Below, piece after piece: positions 1,416 through 53,053 of a stretch of DNA of 64,000 nt (position 1 is the first letter of the stretch; each line of letters begins with the position of its first letter). Source of the DNA: Thermomicrobium sp. 4228-Ro. Its GTDB lineage: Bacteria; Chloroflexota; Chloroflexia; Thermomicrobiales; Thermomicrobiaceae. Location: the NCBI RefSeq assembly GCF_026241205.1, contig NZ_JAPFQM010000001.1, positions 434,001 to 498,000 of the forward strand, given 5' to 3'. The position numbers and the translations under genes are program-made. Under the pieces are notes generated by a model. The model saw only the letters and a program-made list of their open reading frames with translations, did no database searches and had not been told where the DNA came from.

Positions 1416-3104
1416 TCAATAGACCTTGATCGGTGGGGACACACTGTTGAGCGGCAAGTAGAGTACGAACAACGGAATGTACGCGATCGCGACCAGAATG
1501 ACACCGACGAGGAACCAGAAACCGAGACGGTCCCAGAGAGGCGCCGTTTCACGGGCACCGAACCGCATCTCGGCCACCGGGATCTCCATCGGCTGGGCGA
1601 GCCGGCGGCCAGCTAACAGTGTCCAGAGGATAACGATGAAGTAGAGCGCCCCGCTGATCACCATCAGGGTACCACCGATGGCGGTCAACCAGTTGTCGAG
1701 ACCGGCGCTGATGAGGTCGCGGTACGGTGCCTCTCCGATCGACGAGCGACGCGGCTCGCCGAGGAGTCCAGCCGCGATCTGCCCACGCGCGAAGAGGAGG
1801 ACACCGACGAACCACAACCACGCCTGAGCGAGCGCCAGGCGACGCCCCATGAGCTCACGGCCGCTCAGGTACGGGATCAGCCAGTAGGTGATCCCGATGA
1901 AGGAGAGAGCCACCGCTGTCCCCACCGTCATGTGGAAATGGCCAGGGATGAAGGACGTATTGTGTACGACATTGTTGAGGTTATAACTCGCATTGACGAT
2001 CCCAGTCGCGCCACCGAGGATAAAAACGAGCATCGCGAGCAACTGGGCAGCGACACTCGGATCACCCCAGGGAAGCTTCCAGATCCACCCCAAGAGTCCC
2101 CGGCCACCGCGAGCGCGGCCACCGTCCTCCAGTGCCGCCATGACGGTGAAGGCTGTAACGAGGCTCGGATACACTACCGAGAACGTCGTGAACAGGTGGA
2201 CGACCTTCATCACGGTCGGGATACCGGGATCGACGTACTGGTGATGGAGCCCAGTAGGCACCGAGAAGATCAGCAACAGGATGAAGACGAGGCGAACCAG
2301 GCTATCGCTGAAAACACGGCCCCCGACCTGGCGCGGCACGATCAGGTACCAGGAGATATAGGCTGGCATCAGCCAGAAATAGACGATGGCATGGCCGGTG
2401 TACCAGAAAAGAATGCGGTTGAACTGGGGATCGGTCGTTTTCAGCCATCCCAGCTGCCAGGGCAGCAAGAAAAAGACGACGAGTACGACGACTCCGAGCG
2501 AGGCCAGCGCCCACATGACGTACGTGACGACACCAACGAACCCCAGGAGCGGTGTCCGTTCAGCAGGATGCTCGCGTTGCCAGGCCCGGCGCGTCAAGAC
2601 GAGGTTCAACGCCGTCAGGAGTGTGGAGACCACCAGCAATGCAGCACCGAGATAGAACAGTGAACTCGCCCGCATCGGCGCGTAGAAGGTGAAGAGAACC
2701 GTCGCTTGATTCCGCAGGATGGCATACGCTGCGAGCAGCGTGCCGGCCAGCATCGTCCAGAACGCCCCCTGGACGAGGAACGTGCTCGCGAGCGGCCGCT
2801 CGAAGCCGCGGATCGCCATCAGCGAGACGAACGCATTCCCAAAGCCGAAAGTGAACAGAAACGCCAGGAGGACTCCATGGATCGTGAGACCCTGATAATA
2901 GCTCTGGAGTAGCAGTCCCTTGTAGATCACGATGCCCACACGATCCAGCGCCTGCATGAGCCCCATCAGGCCACCGACGGCGAGACCGATGAGGGCGAGC
3001 GCCAGCTGCCCCTTGATCGGCCACAGCTGCTCAGCAAGGAAGACGCCCTCCCGCGCGACCGCTCCACCACCGGCCACAGCCTGAGGACGCGCTGTCGCGC
3101 TCAT
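1416..3104 (-). CDS. cbaA: ba3-type cytochrome c oxidase subunit I
   Basis: This is the heme-copper core of a B-family terminal oxidase. It reduces O2 with electrons from cytochrome c and pumps protons in the cytoplasmic membrane. The 562-residue protein is highly hydrophobic, with about 13 predicted helices. Visible ligands are the helix II His in TIHGVLLAFLF, the CuB His/Tyr pair in GHAIVYFWLMPAY, the HH pair in GLHHQYVDP, and the helix X histidines in FIPGHFHMTVG. The GHxxVYFWLxPAY form is typical of ba3/SoxB-like enzymes. The chosen ATG at 3104 overlaps the subunit II stop codon (ATGA). A longer frame from 3167 would run back into cbaB and lacks support. It is the last gene of a leftward operon: membrane protein, IIa, II, I. 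Confidence 0.95.
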   Translation of the reverse strand: MSATARPQAVAGGGAVAREGVFLAEQLWPIKGQLALALIGLAVGGLMGLMQALDRVGIVIYKGLLLQSYYQGLTIHGVLLAFLFTFGFGNAFVSLMAIRGFERPLASTFLVQGAFWTMLAGTLLAAYAILRNQATVLFTFYAPMRASSLFYLGAALLVVSTLLTALNLVLTRRAWQREHPAERTPLLGFVGVVTYVMWALASLGVVVLVVFFLLPWQLGWLKTTDPQFNRILFWYTGHAIVYFWLMPAYISWYLIVPRQVGGRVFSDSLVRLVFILLLIFSVPTGLHHQYVDPGIPTVMKVVHLFTTFSVVYPSLVTAFTVMAALEDGGRARGGRGLLGWIWKLPWGDPSVAAQLLAMLVFILGGATGIVNASYNLNNVVHNTSFIPGHFHMTVGTAVALSFIGITYWLIPYLSGRELMGRRLALAQAWLWFVGVLLFARGQIAAGLLGEPRRSSIGEAPYRDLISAGLDNWLTAIGGTLMVISGALYFIVILWTLLAGRRLAQPMEIPVAEMRFGARETAPLWDRLGFWFLVGVILVAIAYIPLFVLYLPLNSVSPPIKVY

Positions 3105-3568
3105 CGCACCACCACCTTCCCGTACATCTGGTGATGCCCGAAACCACAGTACTCGTGGCAGACCCAAAGGTACTCACCGGGCTGGTCGAATCGGGCCGTC
3201 ACCTGCGAGATCTGGCCCGGGATGACCATCACATTGGCATTGGTGCCAGTCAACTCGAAACCGTGAATCACGTCCGAACTCGCCAGTGTGAACGTGACCG
3301 TCGAGCCGACCGGTACCTCGATTTCGTTCGGCTGGAACTGCCAAGCACGAGCGACGAGCACTGCTTCGTACTTCCCACCGCCCAAGTCACGTAAACCCGG
3401 CTGATCGAACGGGGGCGTTGTCGACAGCGCTCGCGGATCGACGCGTCCGGCCGGCGAGGGGACATGGACACCAGCGACCAGCGCACCGATCGCGATACCG
3501 ACGATGCCGAGCGCGAGCATGAGACCAGCGAGGACCATGAAGATCCGCTCGTACGTCTCGATCCGCAT
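3101..3568 (-). CDS. cbaB: ba3-type cytochrome c oxidase subunit II (CuA)
   Basis: 155 residues: a single N-terminal membrane anchor (about 10-33) and a periplasmic cupredoxin domain that accepts electrons from cytochrome c. All CuA ligands are present: His102 (DVIHGFE) and the C-terminal cluster Cys137-x-Glu139-x-Cys141-x3-His145-x2-Met148 (CHEYCGFGHHQM). The short length with one transmembrane helix matches the Thermus ba3 subunit II type rather than aa3 oxidases, which have two helices. It starts 4 bp after the subunit IIa stop, and its stop overlaps the subunit I start, so the three subunits are almost certainly co-translated. Confidence 0.95.
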   Translation of the reverse strand: MRIETYERIFMVLAGLMLALGIVGIAIGALVAGVHVPSPAGRVDPRALSTTPPFDQPGLRDLGGGKYEAVLVARAWQFQPNEIEVPVGSTVTFTLASSDVIHGFELTGTNANVMVIPGQISQVTARFDQPGEYLWVCHEYCGFGHHQMYGKVVVR

Positions 3569-3572
3569 CGAT

Positions 3573-3707
3573 TCACCCCCGCCCGAGCATGTCGAAATAC
3601 ACCGTCAACCAGATCCCGATGATCACGATCAAGATGATCAACGTGAGGAACAACGTTCCGACCGGATGCTGTTCATTCCGCTCGTCGCTCCGCTCCACCG
3701 ACGACAT
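3573..3707 (-). CDS. cbaD: Small single-helix protein, cytochrome ba3 oxidase subunit IIa-like (44 aa)
   Basis: A 44-codon gene begins at the ATG at 3707 and ends with TGA at 3573-3575. It has a short charged N-terminus, then one transmembrane helix (TLFLTLIILIVIIGIWLTV) and a short tail YFDMLGRG. In Thermus thermophilus ba3 oxidase, the third subunit (IIa, about 34 residues) is a single helix encoded beside subunit II. Size, topology and position match here. A purine-rich GAGGAGTGGGGAGC precedes the ATG. The gene overlaps the upstream membrane-protein gene by 35 bp in another frame and ends 4 bp before cbaB. Sequence identity to known IIa proteins is not asserted; the call rests on topology and position. 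Confidence 0.75.
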   Translation of the reverse strand: MSSVERSDERNEQHPVGTLFLTLIILIVIIGIWLTVYFDMLGRG

Positions 3708-3978
3708 GCTCCCCACTCCTCTCCGCTTCTTCCCCTGCCACACCACAACCTCGTCCCACCTCGTCTCTCACCTCCCCCAATGCCCCGCTCCGTGCCAGAA
3801 TCCAGCGCGCCAGGAGCAAGGTGAGCAGAACCCCGGCAATGCCGATTCCGCCACGAAACCAGTCGGATCCCGAAGCGAACCCTCCGACGATCCGATTGAA
3901 GCTCGACCAGAACAGCATCGCACTGGCCCCACCCCAAACCAGCAGCACGAGCCAGGCCACAAGCAACGACCAGCGCAT
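3673..3978 (-). CDS. Two-helix membrane protein heading the oxidase operon (101 aa)
   Basis: The product has two hydrophobic segments, about residues 4-28 (SLLVAWLVLLVWGGASAMLF) and 43-62 (GGIGIAGVLLTLLLARWIL), then a polar C-terminal tail rich in Gly, Glu and Arg. I do not recognise the family. A strong ribosome-binding site (GGGAGGGAG) sits 4 bp before the ATG at 3978. It is the first gene of the ba3 oxidase operon, and its 3' end overlaps the start of the subunit IIa gene, so it is probably co-translated and may be an accessory or assembly membrane protein. That role is inferred from position only. The last 25 codons overlap cbaD, which probably explains the low-complexity tail. Confidence 0.6.
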   Translation of the reverse strand: MRWSLLVAWLVLLVWGGASAMLFWSSFNRIVGGFASGSDWFRGGIGIAGVLLTLLLARWILARSGALGEVRDEVGRGCGVAGEEAERSGEHVVGGAERRAE

Positions 3979-4035
3979 CGTCTCCCTCCCGCCTACCGAG
4001 TCTAATCGGAAACCGGCGACCCAGATGGCTCGGTG

Positions 4036-4065
4036 TTGACAGAAAGTGTTACAAATGCATAAAAG
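4036..4065 (+). promoter_or_regulatory. Candidate promoter for the ABC exporter operon
   Basis: A perfect -35 TTGACA lies at 4036-4041. A weak -10 (CATAAA at 4058-4063, 16 bp spacing, or TAAAAG at 4060-4065, 18 bp) lies in the AT-richest stretch of this divergent intergenic region, about 95 bp ahead of the ATPase start. A second -10-like TACACT is at 4116-4121 without a good -35. Confidence 0.4.
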
Positions 4066-4160
4066 TCCGAAGACGGGGCCTATCGCGCATTCGGGCGACG
4101 TCCATCCCGCAGCAGTACACTTAGCTGGTGCGACGCGGTCGCAGCTAGAGGGGCGAACGA

Positions 4161-5132
4161 ATGTCTGCGGCCATCGAGGTCCGTGGTCTGGTGAAACGAT
4201 ACGGCGAGATCATCGCTGTCGCTGGCGTAGACTTCACGGTCGAGCGCGGCGAATTCTTCGGTTTTCTCGGACCGAACGGAGCTGGCAAGACGACCACGAT
4301 CAGCATTCTCTGCACGCTCGTCCGCCCGACCGAGGGCACTGCTCGCGTCGCTGGCTTCGACGTTCGGCATGAATCGGATCGTGTCCGCCAGAAAATCGGA
4401 ATCATCTTTCAAGATCCCAGTCTGGATACGCAGCTCACCGCTTGGGAAAATTTGGCGCTTCACGCTCGCGTCTATGGCGTACCGGGCGCGCTCTGGCGGT
4501 CGAGGGCTGAACAGCTTCTCACCCTCGTTGAACTGTGGGAGCGGCGGCATCACCTGGTTCGAACCTTCTCCGGCGGCATGAAGCGCCGGCTCGAGCTCGT
4601 CCGCGGGCTCCTCCATGCCCCGGACGTCTTATTTCTCGACGAACCGACGCTTGGCCTCGATCCGCAAACACGACGTCAGATCTGGTCGTATCTCCTGACC
4701 TTACGTCGCGAGACAGGTGTGACCCTCTTTCTCACAACGCACTACCTCGATGAGGCAGAACAATGCGATCGCGTCGCGATCATCGATCACGGCCGGATCA
4801 TCGCGCTCGACACGCCGGAAGCGCTCAAGGCGCGGGTGGCCAAGGATATCGTCGTCCTCACCACTGCTGATGACCAGCGAGCGGCCGACGAATTGCGTGC
4901 ACGGTTCGGACTCGAACCGATGCTCGTCGATGGGACGCTGCGTATCGAGGCTGAGCGTGGTGACGAGCTGATCCCGAGACTGATTCGTGAGCTGACCGTA
5001 CCGATTCAGTCGGCGAGTCTCCGTCGTCCTTCGCTGGACGACGTCTTTCTCGCCCTGACTGGTCGACAGATCCGTGAGGAGGAGGCTTCAGAACTCGATC
5101 TGTTCCGCGAGCGTATGCGGGCGCGACGCTGA
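4161..5132 (+). CDS. ABC exporter ATP-binding protein (DrrA/ABC-2 type)
   Basis: 323-residue nucleotide-binding subunit. Walker A is GPNGAGKTTT (about 38-47), the signature is FSGGMKRR, Walker B is VLFLDEPTLGLDP, and the switch His is in LFLTTHYLDEAEQ. The FSGGM form and the C-terminal extension of about 80 residues (TADDQRAADELRARF onward) are typical of drug, polysaccharide or lantibiotic exporter ATPases of the DrrA/NatA group. It powers the permease encoded 11 bp downstream. The ATG at 4161 follows a GAGGGGCGA ribosome-binding site. It is the first gene of a three-gene rightward operon whose third gene is a cobalamin adenosyltransferase. The transported substrate is unknown. Confidence 0.92.
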   Translation: MSAAIEVRGLVKRYGEIIAVAGVDFTVERGEFFGFLGPNGAGKTTTISILCTLVRPTEGTARVAGFDVRHESDRVRQKIGIIFQDPSLDTQLTAWENLALHARVYGVPGALWRSRAEQLLTLVELWERRHHLVRTFSGGMKRRLELVRGLLHAPDVLFLDEPTLGLDPQTRRQIWSYLLTLRRETGVTLFLTTHYLDEAEQCDRVAIIDHGRIIALDTPEALKARVAKDIVVLTTADDQRAADELRARFGLEPMLVDGTLRIEAERGDELIPRLIRELTVPIQSASLRRPSLDDVFLALTGRQIREEEASELDLFRERMRARR

Positions 5133-5143
5133 GAGGAGTCGCG

Positions 5144-6004
5144 ATGGCAACTGCCGAATTGCTCGATCAGGTTCGTCCACCATCCTCCGCCACGCGGGCA
5201 GTCATCGGTGTTCTCACGCTCTGGCAGCGCGATCTCCTGCGCTTCTGGCGTGACCGTACGCGTATCGCCGGAGGACTCGCCCAGCCGCTCCTCTTCCTGG
5301 CTATCTTCGGCGCCGGACTCTCGCCTTGGATGGGACGGCTCGGTGGCGCGACCGCCGGCCCGGATTATGTCCAGTTCATCTATCCCGGTATCATCGGGAT
5401 GTCGGTCCTGTTCTCTTCGATTTTCAGTGCCGTGTCGGTGGTGTGGGATCGCGAGTTCGGCTTCCTTAAAGAACTCCTCGTCGCGCCGATCCCGCGCTGG
5501 TCGATCGTCGTAGGGAAAGCCCTGGGCGGGAGTTCGACGTCCATGCTTCAGGGGCTCCTGCTGCTCGTTTTGGCTCCGGTCATCGGCGTCGGCCTGAGTC
5601 TGCGCGCAATTCTCGTGCTGATCCCGCTCCTCTTTCTGCTCGCCTTCGCGCTCTCCAGCATCGGGCTCGTCATCGCCGCACGGATGCGCTCCACCGAGGG
5701 GTTCGGGCTGGTGATGAACTTCCTCGTCACCCCGCTCCTCTTCCTCTCCGGCGCACTCTATCCACTGAATAACCTTCCATCCTGGCTGCTCGTCCTGACG
5801 CGACTCGATCCGGTCACGTATGGCATCGACGCGATCCGGCGGATCGTGCTCGCCTCGACCGGGGTACCGCAGCCGCTCATCGACCAACTCGGTGTATCGC
5901 TCTTCGGACGCCCGCTCGATCCAGCGCTGGACGCGCTGCTCGTGCTCGCCTTGGGACTCGTCCTGATCGTGGTCGCTGCTCGACAATTCGAGCGGCAAGA
6001 TTGA
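5144..6004 (+). CDS. ABC-2 type transporter permease
   Basis: 286-residue membrane subunit with six predicted helices and the ABC-2 layout: a cytoplasmic N-terminus, helix 1 in GGLAQPLLFLAIFGAGL, and a last extracytoplasmic loop before the final helix (LLVLALGLVLIVVAARQF). The segment YIYPGI-like (QFIYPGIIGMSVLFSSIFS) and ELLVAPIPRWSIVVGKALGG are typical of DrrB/NodJ-like permeases. It partners the ATPase encoded immediately upstream (11-bp gap, GAGGAGTCGCG ribosome-binding site) and is followed after 16 bp by the adenosyltransferase gene. Substrate cannot be deduced. Confidence 0.9.
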   Translation: MATAELLDQVRPPSSATRAVIGVLTLWQRDLLRFWRDRTRIAGGLAQPLLFLAIFGAGLSPWMGRLGGATAGPDYVQFIYPGIIGMSVLFSSIFSAVSVVWDREFGFLKELLVAPIPRWSIVVGKALGGSSTSMLQGLLLLVLAPVIGVGLSLRAILVLIPLLFLLAFALSSIGLVIAARMRSTEGFGLVMNFLVTPLLFLSGALYPLNNLPSWLLVLTRLDPVTYGIDAIRRIVLASTGVPQPLIDQLGVSLFGRPLDPALDALLVLALGLVLIVVAARQFERQD

Positions 6005-6020
6005 CCGGAAGGAGCCAACG

Positions 6021-6563
6021 ATGCTGTACACCGGTAAGGGCGATCAGGGATACACCGATCTCCTCGGTGGCCGCGTGCCGAAATACGCGCCACGACCAGA
6101 AACGTTCGGAACCCTGGACGAAGCAACCTCCGCGATCGGTCTGGCAAGGGCACTCGCTCAGGACGAGAAGACCAAGCGCATCCTCATCCGAGTCCAGCGC
6201 GATCTCTACGTGATGATGGCCGAACTCGCGTTTGCCCCGGGCATCGAACAGGAGAAATACCACATCACCGAAACACACGTGCGGCATCTCGAAGAGACGA
6301 TCGACCGACTCGGTGCGATCGTTCCCATCGGCCGGCACTTCGTCCTACCGGGCGATACCGCTCAGGGGGCGGCACTCGACTTCGCTCGCACCGTCGTACG
6401 ACGTGCCGAGCGCCTGGTCGCGCGACTCTATCATGACGGCGAAGTGCACAACGAATATCTCTTGGCGTACCTGAACCGACTCTCCTCGCTCCTGTTCGTC
6501 TTGGCACGATACGAGGACCATCGTGCCGGAGTCACACCGACGCCAGCGAAAGAGCAGCCATGA
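6021..6563 (+). CDS. pduO: Cob(I)alamin adenosyltransferase, PduO type
   Basis: 180 residues. The enzyme transfers the 5'-deoxyadenosyl group of ATP to cob(I)alamin to make coenzyme B12. The N-terminal ATP-binding motif YTGKGDQGYTDLLGGRVPK corresponds to the TKxGDxGxTxLxGG motif of PduO/MMAB proteins. The GTLDEATSAIG segment and the conserved Arg-rich helix FARTVVRRAERLVARL with NRLSSLLFVLAR are also present. Length is standard for the family. It is the third gene of the ABC exporter operon, 16 bp after the permease and with an AAGGAG ribosome-binding site. No other cobalamin gene is in the window, so the reason for its pairing with an exporter is unclear. It converges on dcd with a 3-bp gap. 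Confidence 0.92.
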   Translation: MLYTGKGDQGYTDLLGGRVPKYAPRPETFGTLDEATSAIGLARALAQDEKTKRILIRVQRDLYVMMAELAFAPGIEQEKYHITETHVRHLEETIDRLGAIVPIGRHFVLPGDTAQGAALDFARTVVRRAERLVARLYHDGEVHNEYLLAYLNRLSSLLFVLARYEDHRAGVTPTPAKEQP

Positions 6564-11972: not shown

Positions 11973-11990
11973 GTCAGGTAGGACGGCGTG

Positions 11991-12086
11991 CCCCGGGAGC
12001 TCGGGTGAACCGGGCTGAGAGGGCGGCTCAGGATTCCGCCGCCGACCGGTACGACCTGATCTGGGTAATGCCAGCGAAGGGAGGGC
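11991..12086 (+). promoter_or_regulatory. TPP riboswitch (THI element)
   Basis: Conserved thi-box cores are all present in order: GGGCTGAGAGGG (pyrimidine-sensing side), a variable P3 stem (GGCGGCTC.../...CCGCCG), then ACCTGATCTGGGTAATGCCAGCG and AAGGGA. The element binds thiamine pyrophosphate and lowers expression of the downstream genes. There is no T-run terminator between it and the tenA start 86 bp on, so control may act at translation or through a less obvious terminator. It sits between the TTGACA/TAGCGT promoter and two tenA paralogues, fitting a thiamine-salvage role. Confidence 0.93.
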
Positions 12087-12171
12087 CGCAGCCGTGTGAC
12101 CGCTTGCCACAATCCCCACCAGAAACCGATCGGTCGCGGTGTCCTCTGCCCGAAAGCAGGAGGTTCGTGTC

Positions 12172-12813
12172 ATGACGACTGTGCTCGACGAGTTGCTGCA
12201 GGAAGCGCAGCCTCTCTGGCAAGCCATGACCCACCATCCGTTCGTTCGCGAACTCGCGACCGGGCAACTGTCGCGTGAACGGTTCGACTTTTGGGTCCAA
12301 CAGGACTATCTGTTCGTTCAGGCAGGCATCCGCTTCGTAGCCTTCCTCATCGCCCGTGCTCCGGATGAGGAACTCCGGCGTGGCCTGCTCGACGCCGCCG
12401 TGGCGTTCCGCAATGAGCTGGCGCTCTTCGAGGACTACGCCCGCACGAACGCTCTCCCGCTGGATGTCGAGCCGACACCAGTCTGTCTCGGTTACGCCTC
12501 GTTCCTCCTCGCGACCGCTGCCACCGGCTCGCTTGCCGAGGCACTGACCGTCCTCTGGGGAGGCGAAAAGGCGTACTACGATGCCTGGTCAACCGTCCGG
12601 GCTACCCTGGGCCTGGCCGAGCCCTACGCGCGCTGGATCGAGAACTGGACGAGCCCGCAGTTCGCCGCCTAGGTCGAGTGGCTCGGTGAGCAACTGCGCG
12701 CGCGAGTAACCGATGCCGAGCGACCAGCCATCCGGGCCGCTTTCTTCGCCACGGCGCGCTACGAGTATCTCTTCTGGGACATGGTCTACGCGCGAGCCGG
12801 TTGGCCCGTCTGA
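12172..12813 (+). pseudogene. tenA: TenA-family (aminopyrimidine aminohydrolase) gene interrupted by an in-frame TAG
   Basis: TenA proteins hydrolyse aminopyrimidine breakdown products of thiamine to HMP (salvage). Here the ATG at 12172 (AGGAGG upstream) starts a TenA protein containing Cys105 (PTPVCLGYASFLL), the usual active-site Cys position. The frame meets TAG at 12670-12672 after 166 residues. Past the TAG, the same frame stays open for 46 more codons, and these are clearly the TenA C-terminus, including RYEYLFWDM (catalytic Glu region), ending with TGA at 12811-12813. With the TAG read as sense, the product would be 213 residues, a normal TenA length. The gap to the next tenA is then a normal 21 bp. 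Options are a recent nonsense mutation, a sequencing error, or readthrough. The truncated product would lack the last helix and catalytic Glu. Confidence 0.85.
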
Positions 12814-12834: not shown

Positions 12835-13500
12835 ATGACCCGGTTCACCGAGGAACTGTGGCGTGCCATCGATCCGATCTTCTCGGCTATTCTCGCTCAC
12901 CCCTTCGTCGAGGGCCTCACCGACGGAACATTGCCCGTCGAGGCATTTCGCTTCTACGTCCTCCAGGATGCACGCTACTTGCAAGATTACGCCCGCTGCC
13001 TCGCCATCGCCGCAGCCAAGGCTCCCCGTCAGGACTGGTGCGAACTCTTCGCCGAGCACGCGAAGGTCGCCCTCGTGGTCGAACGAGCCCTCCACGAGAG
13101 CTTCTTCCAGGAATGGGGGCTCACCGAAGAGCACGTCGCGGCGACGCCGTATGCTCCGGCTAATCTCGCCTACACCTCGTACCTGTTGCGTGTCGCTTAC
13201 GAACGCCCGTTCGAGGAACTGCTCGGTGCGGTGCTGCCCTGCTACTGGATCTATTGGGAGGTGGGGAAGCATCTCGAGCGCCTCGGATCGCCCAATCCGC
13301 TCTATCAACGATGGATCGATACCTATGCCTCCGAGGAGTACGCGCAGGTCGTGCGCGCGGTTCTCACGGTGATGGACGAGGTAGTCACCGATCTCCCCGA
13401 ATCGAGGCGTCTGCCCATTCGGGAACATTTCATCACCACCTCGCGGTACGAATGGCTGTTCTGGGATAGCGCCTGGCGATTGGAAACCTGGCCCGTCTGA
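12835..13500 (+). CDS. tenA: TenA-family protein lacking the active-site Cys
   Basis: 221-residue intact TenA/thiaminase II-like protein, second gene under the TPP riboswitch, with ribosome-binding site GAGGAG. Conserved segments: HPFVEGLTDGTL, FRFYVLQDARYLQDYARCLA, ANLAYTSYLLRVA, LPCYWIYWEVGKHL, and the C-terminal TTSRYEWLFWDSAW containing the catalytic Glu. The position that is Cys in the upstream paralogue and in Bacillus TenA is Asn here (PANLAYT). It therefore belongs to the Cys-less group, which has been described as a distinct TenA class with a different substrate preference. It probably takes part in thiamine or thiamine-fragment salvage; the exact substrate is unknown. Confidence 0.88.
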   Translation: MTRFTEELWRAIDPIFSAILAHPFVEGLTDGTLPVEAFRFYVLQDARYLQDYARCLAIAAAKAPRQDWCELFAEHAKVALVVERALHESFFQEWGLTEEHVAATPYAPANLAYTSYLLRVAYERPFEELLGAVLPCYWIYWEVGKHLERLGSPNPLYQRWIDTYASEEYAQVVRAVLTVMDEVVTDLPESRRLPIREHFITTSRYEWLFWDSAWRLETWPV

Positions 13501-13907: not shown

Positions 13908-15056
13908 GTGCCGACTCGCTGGTTCCCGGTTCAGCGCGTCGTGTCGCTGACGCTCGTGCTCGCTACTGCACTCTTCTTTCTGGCTTGCAGCCAGTCGCCG
14001 GAAGCGGAACCGACTCCGACCCAGCCAGCTGCCGGAGCAGGAACGACTCCGACGACGGTCGCGACACCCGACCCCCACGGGGAACATGCGACCGCGATCC
14101 AGGACGACGCCGACCTCGTCGCGACACTCTACGAAATGCTCGGACACCTCGAAGCGAGCCGCGCGAACCTCGATCGGGGCAACTGGACACTGGCCCAAGC
14201 GCATGCGGCACACCCGACCGCCGAGCACTGGGCCTCGATCGAGTCGGCGCTCGCCGAACGCGGGTTGACTTCGATCCACGAGCCACTCGACGCATACCTC
14301 CAGGCCGCACGGGAGCAGTCCGCGGACGCGGGCCGAGCCAACGAGGCTGCGCAACAGGCAGTCCGCGAGGCGATCGCGACGATCCTACAGTCCGGTGACG
14401 ATCGATCGTCGCTCCAGGCTGCTGCGCTCGCAACGCTCGCCGAGTCGGTCGCGACGGAACTCGCCGAGGCGGTCGAAAACGGTCAGCTCGTCAACGTCGA
14501 AGAGTTTCAGGACGCGTGGGGCTTTTTCCAAGTGCTGCAAAGCGAGCTACCGGACGCGGTCACAGCCGCTCCAGAAACGGGGAAAGAAGCGGCGACCGAG
14601 GCACGGGAGGATCTGGAGGCGCTCGAGGCCAGCGCACTCGCGCAGTTCCACGATGAAGCCGGTGCCGCCTTCACCGTCATCGATACGATCCGCGAGCGAC
14701 TCCAGCACCTCGCCGCTGAACTCCGGCTCGCCTACGGGATCAGCGCGCCGCAAGCAACGTCGGTCAGCGACCAGATCGCCGAGATTCAGGCGATGCTGGA
14801 CGAAGCGCTCGAACGCTACAGGCAGGGTGACGCCGAGGGAGCCTACGAGCAGGCTGCGAACGCCTACCTCGAAGGATTCGAGCACCTCGAGGCACCGCTC
14901 CTCGATGCCGGTCATCGCGAACTGGTCGAGCGCCTCGAACTCGACTTTAAGGCCGTTCGCGATGCGATTCGCGACGGTCGCCCGGTCGATGAAGTGTCCC
15001 GGTTGATCGACAAGGTGAAGAGCGGACTCGTCGAAGTCGAGGAGGTCTTGCAGTGA
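13908..15056 (+). CDS. Lipoprotein of an FTR1-type iron uptake system
   Basis: 382 residues. It starts at GTG 13908, directly after GGGAGGAGAGG; upstream in-frame starts at 13869 and 13890 lack a ribosome-binding site. Lipoprotein signal: hydrophobic stretch then LFFLAC with the lipid-attached Cys27, followed by a Thr/Pro-rich linker. The rest is alpha-helical, rich in Ala and Glu. Its last 90 or so residues (EIQAMLDEALERYRQGDAEGAYEQAANAYLEGFEHLE to the end) resemble the extracellular N-terminal domain of the FTR1 permease encoded next (RDAYRAGDRERALRLARQAYLDHFELVE), including the shared ending SGLVEVEEV/ESGLVEVERV. It likely binds or delivers iron outside the membrane. Its stop overlaps the FTR1 start (GTGA). 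Confidence 0.75.
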   Translation: MPTRWFPVQRVVSLTLVLATALFFLACSQSPEAEPTPTQPAAGAGTTPTTVATPDPHGEHATAIQDDADLVATLYEMLGHLEASRANLDRGNWTLAQAHAAHPTAEHWASIESALAERGLTSIHEPLDAYLQAAREQSADAGRANEAAQQAVREAIATILQSGDDRSSLQAAALATLAESVATELAEAVENGQLVNVEEFQDAWGFFQVLQSELPDAVTAAPETGKEAATEAREDLEALEASALAQFHDEAGAAFTVIDTIRERLQHLAAELRLAYGISAPQATSVSDQIAEIQAMLDEALERYRQGDAEGAYEQAANAYLEGFEHLEAPLLDAGHRELVERLELDFKAVRDAIRDGRPVDEVSRLIDKVKSGLVEVEEVLQ

Positions 15057-16309
15057 CGTTCGCCGCACCACGCTGGGTACGACTCGTTAACCTGCTCGTG
15101 TTCGCAGTCACACTGCTCGCGCTGGTCATGCTGCCGAGAGCGACTCACGCCCAAGCGCAGGCGCCGGCAGTCGCCGTGCGCGACGAGCTGGCTGCGCTCC
15201 GCACACTTATGCAGCAGAGTCGTGATGCGTACCGTGCAGGAGACCGCGAGCGTGCCCTGCGCCTGGCGCGGCAGGCCTACCTCGATCACTTCGAACTCGT
15301 CGAGATTCCGCTCCGCGTCGCCGATCCGACCTTCACGTTCACGATGGAAGTGAAATTCGCCGAGTGGCGGCAGCTCATCGAGGAGGGCGCGCCAGTCGAG
15401 GAAATCGACCGCATTCTCATGGATATCGAGAGCGGACTGGTGGAAGTGGAGCGGGTGGTCGGTGGTCCAGGTATCGCCGCCCCGCTCTTCGTCACGCTCG
15501 CCTCCTTTTCCATCCTGTTCCGTGAAGGGATCGAAGCGATCCTCGTCATCGCCGCCCTGCTGGGTTATCTCGGCGTCCACCATCCCAGCTTGCGCCGTCC
15601 GCTCTGGATCGGCGTGCTCCTCGCACTGCCGGCGACCCTGGCGACCTGGGTCCTGCTGGTGGTCGTCCTGCGGGTGATGCCGATCGGGCGTGAGATTCTG
15701 GAAATCGCGATGTCACTCCTGGCGGTGCTCCTCATGATTTCGATCAGCCTCTGGCTCCTGCGTCGAATCGACACGCGGCGCTGGATGGAATACCTTCGAG
15801 CCCACGCGTGGGAGGCGGTCGCGACCGGCAAGGCGTCAGCAGTGGCGTTGCTCGGCTTTACCGCTGTCTATCGTGAGGGTGCCGAAACAGCCGTACTCTA
15901 CCAGTCCCTCGTCCTGATGGCCCGGCGACTGGAATTCTGGATCGTGCTCGGTGTTCTGCTCGCTGCCGGGCTGCTCCTCGCCATCGGATGGGCAGTCATC
16001 GCGCTCGGTGCCCGATTGCCGTTGCGGGCATTCCTCTCCGCAGCTGTCGTCGTCATCATGCTGCTGTCGGTCGCCATACTCGGGCACGCGGTCTGGGAGC
16101 TTCAGATGCTCGGTTATCTGCCGATCACGGTCGTCGAGCTCCCCACGCTCGATCGCGTGCTGACCGATCTCCTCGGCCTTCACCCGACTCGCGAGGTGCT
16201 GATCGCACAGGCTGCGCTCGTTCTGGCATATAGTGCAGCGTGGGTGTGGGCTGGCTGGACATGGTACCGCAGCGCAGCGGTAAGCCGAGCAATCCAGGTC
16301 TCCAAGTAG
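15053..16309 (+). CDS. FTR1-family iron permease
   Basis: 418 residues: a Sec signal peptide (about 10-33, ending ATHAQA), an extracytoplasmic helical domain of about 110 residues, then seven predicted membrane helices. The two iron-translocation motifs RExxE are both present: FREGIEAIL (Arg157-Glu161) and YREGAETAVL (Arg274-Glu278). FTR1/EfeU permeases import iron, in bacteria usually with a periplasmic partner; no EfeO/EfeB gene is nearby, and the upstream lipoprotein may take that role. GTG 15053 overlaps the lipoprotein stop. The strong TTGACA/TAGAAT promoter upstream serves both. The 152-residue membrane-anchored protein further downstream may also belong to this locus. Confidence 0.9.
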   Translation: MTFAAPRWVRLVNLLVFAVTLLALVMLPRATHAQAQAPAVAVRDELAALRTLMQQSRDAYRAGDRERALRLARQAYLDHFELVEIPLRVADPTFTFTMEVKFAEWRQLIEEGAPVEEIDRILMDIESGLVEVERVVGGPGIAAPLFVTLASFSILFREGIEAILVIAALLGYLGVHHPSLRRPLWIGVLLALPATLATWVLLVVVLRVMPIGREILEIAMSLLAVLLMISISLWLLRRIDTRRWMEYLRAHAWEAVATGKASAVALLGFTAVYREGAETAVLYQSLVLMARRLEFWIVLGVLLAAGLLLAIGWAVIALGARLPLRAFLSAAVVVIMLLSVAILGHAVWELQMLGYLPITVVELPTLDRVLTDLLGLHPTREVLIAQAALVLAYSAAWVWAGWTWYRSAAVSRAIQVSK

Positions 16310-29271: not shown

Positions 29272-30720
29272 ATGTGCGAGCAGTCATACCTCGATCCGCG
29301 GTACCGCTGGGCAGTGGCCTACCTCCGCGCTCTCATTCAGGCTCCGCCCGGTCCCCCACCTGGAACGCCGCCTGAGGTCGTGCGGGAACGTGCTCAGCAG
29401 CGACTCGAGCGCTTGCGCGCGTTCCTGCATTTTCTCGGGGATCCGCATCGAGCCTACCCGGTGATTCACGTGACCGGAACGTCCGGGAAGGGCTCGACTA
29501 GCGCCTTCATCGCCAGTATCCTGCATGCGGCGGGCCTGCGGGTCGGCTTGCACATCTCTCCGTACCTCCAGGTCGAAACCGAGAAGCTCCAGATCGGTGG
29601 TGCGCTCATTGCGCCCGATCGCTTCGCGGACTCTGTCGCGGAACTCGATGAAGCCGTTCGTGCGTGGACCGCACGGGGCGAGCAACCCCTGACCTACGGC
29701 GAGTTCTGGACTGCGCTCGTCTTCCACGCGTTCCGTCAAGAAGCTGTCGACTTCGCTGTCGTCGAAGTCGGCGTCGGTGGGCGATTCGACCTGACAAACG
29801 TCGTGCTTCCGGAAGTCGCCGTCATCACGACCGTTGGACTCGACCATATCCGCACGCTCGGTCCGACGATTCGCGATATCGCCTGGCACAAGGCGGGCAT
29901 CATCAAACCTGGTCGCCCGGTCGTCACCGGCGTCAACGATCCCGAACTCCTCGCGATCATCGTCGAAGAAGCGAGGAAGCTCGGTGCCCCGCTCCGAACC
30001 GTGCGGGAGGGCCACGATTTCACTGTACGCGTCGAAAGGGACTCGACGCTTCTGATCGACTCCCGTATCGGGGCCCGCTACCGCCTCGGGCTGAGCGGGC
30101 GATTTCAGGCGCAGAACGCGGCGCTCGCCATCGCCGCGATCCACGCCCTCGGCTGGCCACAAGACCGCGCCGGTCCGGCGATCGCAGACGGGCTCGCTGC
30201 CACGCGTTTCCCGGGTCGTTTCGAGATCGTGCAAGAGCAGCCAATGGTCATCCTCGACGGGGCGCACAACCCACAAAAGCTCGGTGCGCTGCTCGCTGCC
30301 CTAAACGATCTTCCAAAACCAGTCCGTCGCATCGTCGTCTTCGGTGTCCTGGATGGCCACGATGCTAGCGAAATGGCAGCCCTGCTCGCCGAGTACGCAG
30401 ATGTGGTGCTGACGACGGCTCCCGAAGCGACGCTCCGGACGGCTGCTGATCCGCTCGAGCTCGCGCGGCTGTTCGAGCAACACGGCGTTACCGCTGTACC
30501 CATCCGGCGCGTCGAGGATGCCCTCGACATTGCCCTTCGCGTGGCTCAACCGGACGATCAGATACTCGTCACCGGTTCGCTGTATCTGGTCGGTCAAGCG
30601 CGCGAGCGATGGTACCCGAGCGCCGAGATCGTTCGGCAACGAACGTGCTGGCCGGAGCCGAGAACCGACTCAGGGGCGGACGCACGGCCGATTTGCCGCG
30701 AGCAGCACGCTACGATGTAG
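29272..30720 (+). CDS. folC: Folylpolyglutamate synthase / dihydrofolate synthase
   Basis: 482 residues. ATP-dependent addition of Glu to folates. Mur-ligase-type P-loop VTGTSGKGSTSAFIASIL (about 64-80), HISPYLQVETEKLQI, VEVGVGGRFDLTNV, TTVGLDHIRTLGPTIRDIAWHKAGIIK, LSGRFQAQNAALAIAAI, and C-terminal DGAHNPQKLGAL are all diagnostic. About 35 extra residues at the N-terminus and a Cys/Arg-rich tail make it longer than most bacterial FolC proteins (about 430). An AAAGGA motif lies 11 bp before the ATG. potA follows after 54 bp, so read-through into the polyamine operon is possible. Confidence 0.94.
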   Translation: MCEQSYLDPRYRWAVAYLRALIQAPPGPPPGTPPEVVRERAQQRLERLRAFLHFLGDPHRAYPVIHVTGTSGKGSTSAFIASILHAAGLRVGLHISPYLQVETEKLQIGGALIAPDRFADSVAELDEAVRAWTARGEQPLTYGEFWTALVFHAFRQEAVDFAVVEVGVGGRFDLTNVVLPEVAVITTVGLDHIRTLGPTIRDIAWHKAGIIKPGRPVVTGVNDPELLAIIVEEARKLGAPLRTVREGHDFTVRVERDSTLLIDSRIGARYRLGLSGRFQAQNAALAIAAIHALGWPQDRAGPAIADGLAATRFPGRFEIVQEQPMVILDGAHNPQKLGALLAALNDLPKPVRRIVVFGVLDGHDASEMAALLAEYADVVLTTAPEATLRTAADPLELARLFEQHGVTAVPIRRVEDALDIALRVAQPDDQILVTGSLYLVGQARERWYPSAEIVRQRTCWPEPRTDSGADARPICREQHATM

Positions 30721-35005: not shown

Positions 35006-35611
35006 CTATCCAGCTTCGACCGGCTTCCGTTCCAGCCCGAGTTCCTCTGCGATCTCCTTCATCGCCTCGAGGACGATACGGATATGCTCGTCGAGCGGCA
35101 CGCCGAGTTCCGCGGCTGCCTTTTCGATCTCCTGCCGGTTGACCGCTGCGGCGAACTCCTTGGCCTTCCACTTCTTCTTGACGCTCGAAACCTCGACGTC
35201 GAGAATGCTCCTCGTCGGACGCACGAGCGCTACAGCCACAAGGAAGCCGGTCAGCTCATCGACCGCGACGAGGGTCTTCTCCAGGAGTGACTCAGGCTCC
35301 ACGCCCGTCACGTCGCTCGCGTGCGCGAGGATCGCGCGGATCACCTCCTCGGGATACCCGCGTTCCCGCAGGATGCGCGATCCCACGACCGGGTGTCCCT
35401 CGGAACTGATCGTCGGATACCGCTCGTAATCGAAATCATGCAAGAGCCCGACGAGCCCCCACAGTTCCTCGTCCTCTCCGAAGCGGCGCGCATACGCCCG
35501 CATCGCCGCTTCGACGGCGCGCATGTGGCGCAGCAGATGCGGCTGCGTCGTGTACTGCCGCACGAGTTCCCAGGCCTCCTCGCGTGTCGGCAAACGCCGC
35601 TCGACCGTCAC
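35006..35611 (-). CDS. HD-domain phosphohydrolase (HDIG type)
   Basis: 201 residues from GTG 35611 (GGGAGGGG upstream). Metal-binding residues of the HD domain: HLLRHMRAVEAAMRAYARRFGED, VGLLHDFDYERYP (HD), EGHPVVGSRIL, ILAHASDVTG and the final Asp in VAVDELTGFL. This small stand-alone HDIG group includes putative nucleotidases and phosphodiesterases; substrate unknown. Preceded in the same direction by a membrane-protein gene with a 19-bp gap, so probably bicistronic. Confidence 0.85.
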   Translation of the reverse strand: MTVERRLPTREEAWELVRQYTTQPHLLRHMRAVEAAMRAYARRFGEDEELWGLVGLLHDFDYERYPTISSEGHPVVGSRILRERGYPEEVIRAILAHASDVTGVEPESLLEKTLVAVDELTGFLVAVALVRPTRSILDVEVSSVKKKWKAKEFAAAVNRQEIEKAAAELGVPLDEHIRIVLEAMKEIAEELGLERKPVEAG

Positions 35612-52851: not shown

Positions 52852-52900
52852 CAGGTTCGGTCGAAGTCGCTCATGCGCCGGTACGATCGACCGGAGCAAC

Positions 52901-53043
52901 GACCTTCTCCCATCCGGACTGTACCGTCGGCCCCGGAATTGGCGCTTCGTGCGCCTCACCGGATCCTGCGGCCGGAGGCCGCTCGCGGGCTTTACCGCCG
53001 GTCGGGAATTGGCGCCTTCGCGCCTCACCCTGCCCCGAAGGTC
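52901..53043 (-). promoter_or_regulatory. FMN riboswitch (RFN element)
   Basis: Reading leftward, the RFN core blocks appear in order: CTTCGGGGCAGGGTGA, AATTCCCGACCGGCGGTAAAGCCCGCGAGC, GGATCCGGTGA, AATTCCGGGGCCGACGGTACAGTCCGGATGGGAGAAGG. Two of the conserved hairpins are extended by GGCGC-rich stems. It controls ribD-ribE-ribBA-ribH through the adjoining terminator. Confidence 0.96.
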
Positions 53044-53053
53044 TTGCACATGC

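Follow-up and report, generated by a model that had tools for sequence, protein, structure and literature searches.

In Thermomicrobium sp. 4228-Ro, where two tenA genes lie in tandem, a genuine and very recent nonsense mutation very probably interrupts the first; a change of TGG to TAG (G:C to A:T) would have turned this gene, here called tenA1, into a pseudogene with a single lesion. The stretch of DNA that we analysed, referred to below as the window, covers 64,000 nucleotides (G000:C1:434001-498000, with C1 denoting contig NZ_JAPFQM010000001.1) of an assembly of 13 contigs and 3,068,448 bases. In the proposed course of events, a single TGG to TAG transition occurred in tenA1 and translation would now end at residue 166. 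The resulting product would break off within the penultimate helix, with the catalytic Glu and the final helix missing, and would presumably be inactive or unstable; the second gene, tenA2, would still provide thiaminase II/amino-HMP hydrolase activity. The mutation may be a natural polymorphism, or it may have been fixed during isolation and culture. On this account, tenA1 is an ordinary young pseudogene, which involves no new mechanism and no new reading of a stop codon.

The tenA1-tenA2 locus and its interrupted frame

The two genes lie on the plus strand behind a TPP riboswitch (RF00059, positions 11983-12099; Rfam score 60 bits, gathering threshold 54.3), which forms the leader of the tenA1-tenA2 unit. 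The first gene, preceded by AGGAGG, starts with the ATG at 12172 and, as it would be translated, extends to 12672, with 166 sense codons followed in frame by the amber codon TAG at 12670-12672. The presumably untranslated remainder (12673-12813) consists of 46 codons (12673-12810), which encode VEWLGEQ...RYEYLFWDMVYARAGWPV, and of the natural stop TGA at 12811-12813. This TGA is located just upstream of a GAGAGGAG-type ribosome-binding site, after which the intact tenA2 begins with its ATG at 12835 and ends at 13500. The sequence-only reading had described a TAG interrupting a TenA gene at exactly these coordinates, and also a tail ending just before the ribosome-binding site of the next gene; both observations are correct.

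An open tail is by itself insignificant, as the chance that a random stretch of 46 codons is open at this GC content is approximately 34%. Its significance comes from homology, since the Pfam family TENA_THI-4 (PF03070) spans the whole read-through frame (113.6 bits against a gathering score of 22) and the translation of that frame can be aligned over its full length with its counterparts in all five congeners in which the gene was found. Six further species of Thermomicrobium, each represented by a single genome, were searched for the locus. The tenA1-tenA2 tandem is present in five of them, with tenA1 open throughout in each case, and no TenA match was obtained in the sixth genome, which is itself 54% complete. 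In the codon alignment, all five congeners have TGG (Trp) opposite the TAG of the window; among these genomes the stop is private to 4228-Ro. Trp also occupies this column in three orthologues from another genus of Thermomicrobiaceae and in one homologue from Binatia; the wider TenA family is variable at this position.

As every congener with the gene has TGG at this site, one G-to-A transition is sufficient to account for the stop, and this is the simplest reading of the alignment. It is also a change of the most expected kind, since no codon is more prone than TGG to become a stop by transition: of the 30 single transitions that would create a stop in tenA1, 18 affect its nine TGG codons.

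The sequence-only reading had also described the 46 codons as a well-preserved TenA C-terminus with no other lesion, and this holds, as the tail aligns without a gap and shares 83% of its amino acids with the nearest relative (HR27), compared with 82% for the part before the stop. The dN/dS ratio against HR27 (NG86) was 0.07 after the stop and 0.14 before it. When the tail was compared with two relatives, the codons found only in the window comprised three synonymous changes and no non-synonymous ones. The tail is thus without any sign of decay; however, this is a weak clock, because it has only 46 codons and the nearest relative is a distant one (dS of about 0.8 before and about 1.5 after the stop), and a tail of this length does not allow the lesion to be dated. 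The earlier reading had left open very recent decay, read-through of the stop, or an error in base calling, and the evidence favours recent decay.

Structure and subfamily of TenA1

The protein that would be obtained by reading through the stop was modelled with a pLDDT of 96, and its best match among solved structures was 1rtw from Pyrococcus furiosus (TM 0.90-0.93), which identifies the TenA fold. In this model the stop falls within the helix formed by residues 163-179, and the last helix, 182-208, is removed. The tail also contains the catalytic Glu (in the motif YEYLFWDM), a column occupied by E in 61/61 aligned sequences and equivalent, in our alignment, to the B. subtilis TenA residue Glu205 (named as in PMC10277260); hence the suggestion that the truncated product lacks the catalytic Glu region is borne out.

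At the position of the active-site Cys (Cys135 in B. subtilis TenA), tenA1 of the window has Gly, and its orthologues in Thermomicrobium and in the sister genus have Ala. By the Cys criterion for TenA_E (Zallot et al. 2014, as cited in PMC10277260), the Cys-less tenA1 would be TenA_E-like. It shares with the TenA_E subfamily the TENA_THI-4 family and the fold, and its sequence keeps the catalytic Glu column, but in 4228-Ro this column lies beyond the stop. From TenA_C, the B. subtilis-type thiaminase II, it differs both in the missing Cys and in its score against the NCBIfam thiaminase II model TIGR04306, which is below the cut-off (83.8 against 130 bits). The product of tenA2, in contrast, is of the TenA_C type: in the alignment to B. 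subtilis TenA it has the catalytic Cys (LPCYW), and it scores 166.9 bits against the same cut-off of 130. Cys-less TenA proteins, in which Ala or Gly replaces the active-site Cys and an EKAY motif is conserved, form a clade with members in both Thermomicrobiaceae and Binatia.

The preferred substrate of plant TenA_E is the formylaminopyrimidine that arises when thiamin breaks down (PMC10470507). By analogy, the activity missing from 4228-Ro may be of the formylaminopyrimidine type.

Alternatives to a recent nonsense mutation

An error in the consensus sequence, with tenA1 intact in the cell and the TAG an artefact of a Nanopore-based assembly, was considered in the first place, and we regard it as unlikely. 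The complete absence of decay in the tail would fit such an error, as would the assembly backbone, which was obtained from Nanopore R9.4.1 reads with Flye. However, the assembly was then subjected to seven rounds of Pilon with 17.5 million Illumina reads of 100 bases (PMC10019275), which we computed to correspond to a depth of approximately 570x. These short reads should map unambiguously at tenA1, as the locus is single-copy and the only other TenA is merely 34% identical. Moreover, the lesion is a substitution and not a homopolymer indel, and survival of a substitution error through such polishing is improbable. We also considered methylation at CCTGG, either as a hotspot of base-call errors or as a source of deamination; this candidate was dropped, as a search of the genome with PF00145 gave no C5 DNA methyltransferase.

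Indels relative to a congener in two nearby genes could likewise be taken to speak for residual assembly errors. They were found when we examined how frequent broken genes are around the locus, an examination covering 244 kb (the window and 180 kb of flanks) and about 177 genes that could be compared with those of a congener. The gene survey itself was greedy and crude, and in this GC-rich genome spurious antisense open reading frames produced many false stops and one of them masked tenA1 itself, so only those lesions that were verified by eye in alignments were counted. Two further broken genes were identified among the approximately 177. One is a 790-aa gene near C1:410,892 on the minus strand, a putative large subunit of a molybdenum hydroxylase (assigned by eye), which has a one-base frameshift and both halves of which are 91% identical to the intact gene of the congener. 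The other is a 513-aa gene at C1:502,291-503,772 on the plus strand, putatively encoding the beta subunit of a nitrate reductase (also assigned by eye); compared with the congener, one base is inserted and 58 are deleted, so that with a net change of -57 the frame is regained past a garbled stretch. The genome announcement lists 34 pseudogenes and 2,719 protein-coding genes (PMC10019275). Given these 34 pseudogenes and the two further broken genes of our survey, it can be concluded that the lesion in tenA1 is within the ordinary rate for this genome. Indeed, tenA1 resembles other bacterial pseudogenes with a single premature stop, having one nonsense codon, an intact remainder and intact orthologues in relatives. 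Such pseudogenes make up about 1% of the genes in this genome, and tenA1, with no second lesion, is younger than most.

A real TAG could still be suppressed or recoded, which would give full-length TenA1, perhaps as a regulated form at a low level. This is what an intact and apparently constrained tail might suggest, but we hold it to be very unlikely, since all signs in the genome are against suppression. ARAGORN reported 49 tRNA hits in the genome, among which none was identified as having a CUA anticodon. The genome encodes RF1, the release factor that reads UAG. Furthermore, TAG ends other conserved genes of the window exactly at the final residue of their relatives, e.g., at 15053-16309, 29272-30720 and, with its stop, 35009-35599. 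Reassignment of the stop codon, as in pyrrolysine or other amber-reassigned decoding, was rejected on the same grounds of tRNA content and normal termination at TAG. A structured read-through signal 3' of the stop was rejected as well, as the RNA following the stop folds no better than shuffled sequences (z 0.88). The lack of a CUA tRNA hit, the presence of RF1, the use of TAG as a normal terminator and a stop shared with no congener together argue against programmed read-through, although some near-cognate suppression at a low level may occur. In a survey of prokaryotic genomes, in-frame stops with dN/dS below 1, i.e., under purifying selection, were seen to be common and frequent read-through was argued; the same work, however, concluded that most in-frame stops are short-lived and without functional recoding (PMC7918605). 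A stronger form of this proposal, in which this thermophile reads through the amber codon at a useful rate and so keeps up the TPP-riboswitch-controlled synthesis of full-length, Cys-less TenA1 while being probably limited to pyrimidine salvage, seems to us more improbable still.

Finally, an older loss of TenA1, maintained because the short product has a function of its own, has next to no probability: the open frame of 166 residues is all that speaks for it, but the tail is undecayed and the product would be missing both the invariant Glu and the final helix.

Thiamin salvage and the meaning of the lesion

Under the preferred reading, that of a recent nonsense mutation, the lesion is in itself of little import, being that of one more young pseudogene. 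The genome of 4228-Ro has three TPP riboswitches. Besides the one upstream of tenA1-tenA2, a second precedes genes for ThiD, ThiE, a TenI-like protein and ThiS, and a third precedes an ABC transporter. A search of 21 Thermomicrobiaceae genomes for ThiC (PF01964) gave no match in any of them, while the same protein was found in 13/14 control genomes. As judged from this gene content, salvage is probably the sole route to the thiamin pyrimidine.

The loss of one TenA is mildly informative because the organism is probably dependent on pyrimidine salvage. Strain 4228-Ro offers a natural single-gene test of what a Cys-less TenA contributes beside an ordinary one. A culture medium supplying thiamin would mask the loss of tenA1, and cultures of 4228-Ro may have had thiamin supplied.

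Two further observations concern the surroundings of these genes. In the sister genus (L190, G019:C38:53500-60500, within 1779-6449), the two tenA genes flank genes for a PF09819 protein, a double ABC ATPase and CbiQ, and this transporter resembles YkoEDC, an ECF transporter for the thiamin pyrimidine. The window of 4228-Ro also contains an FMN riboswitch (RF00050) at 52898-53046 on the minus strand.
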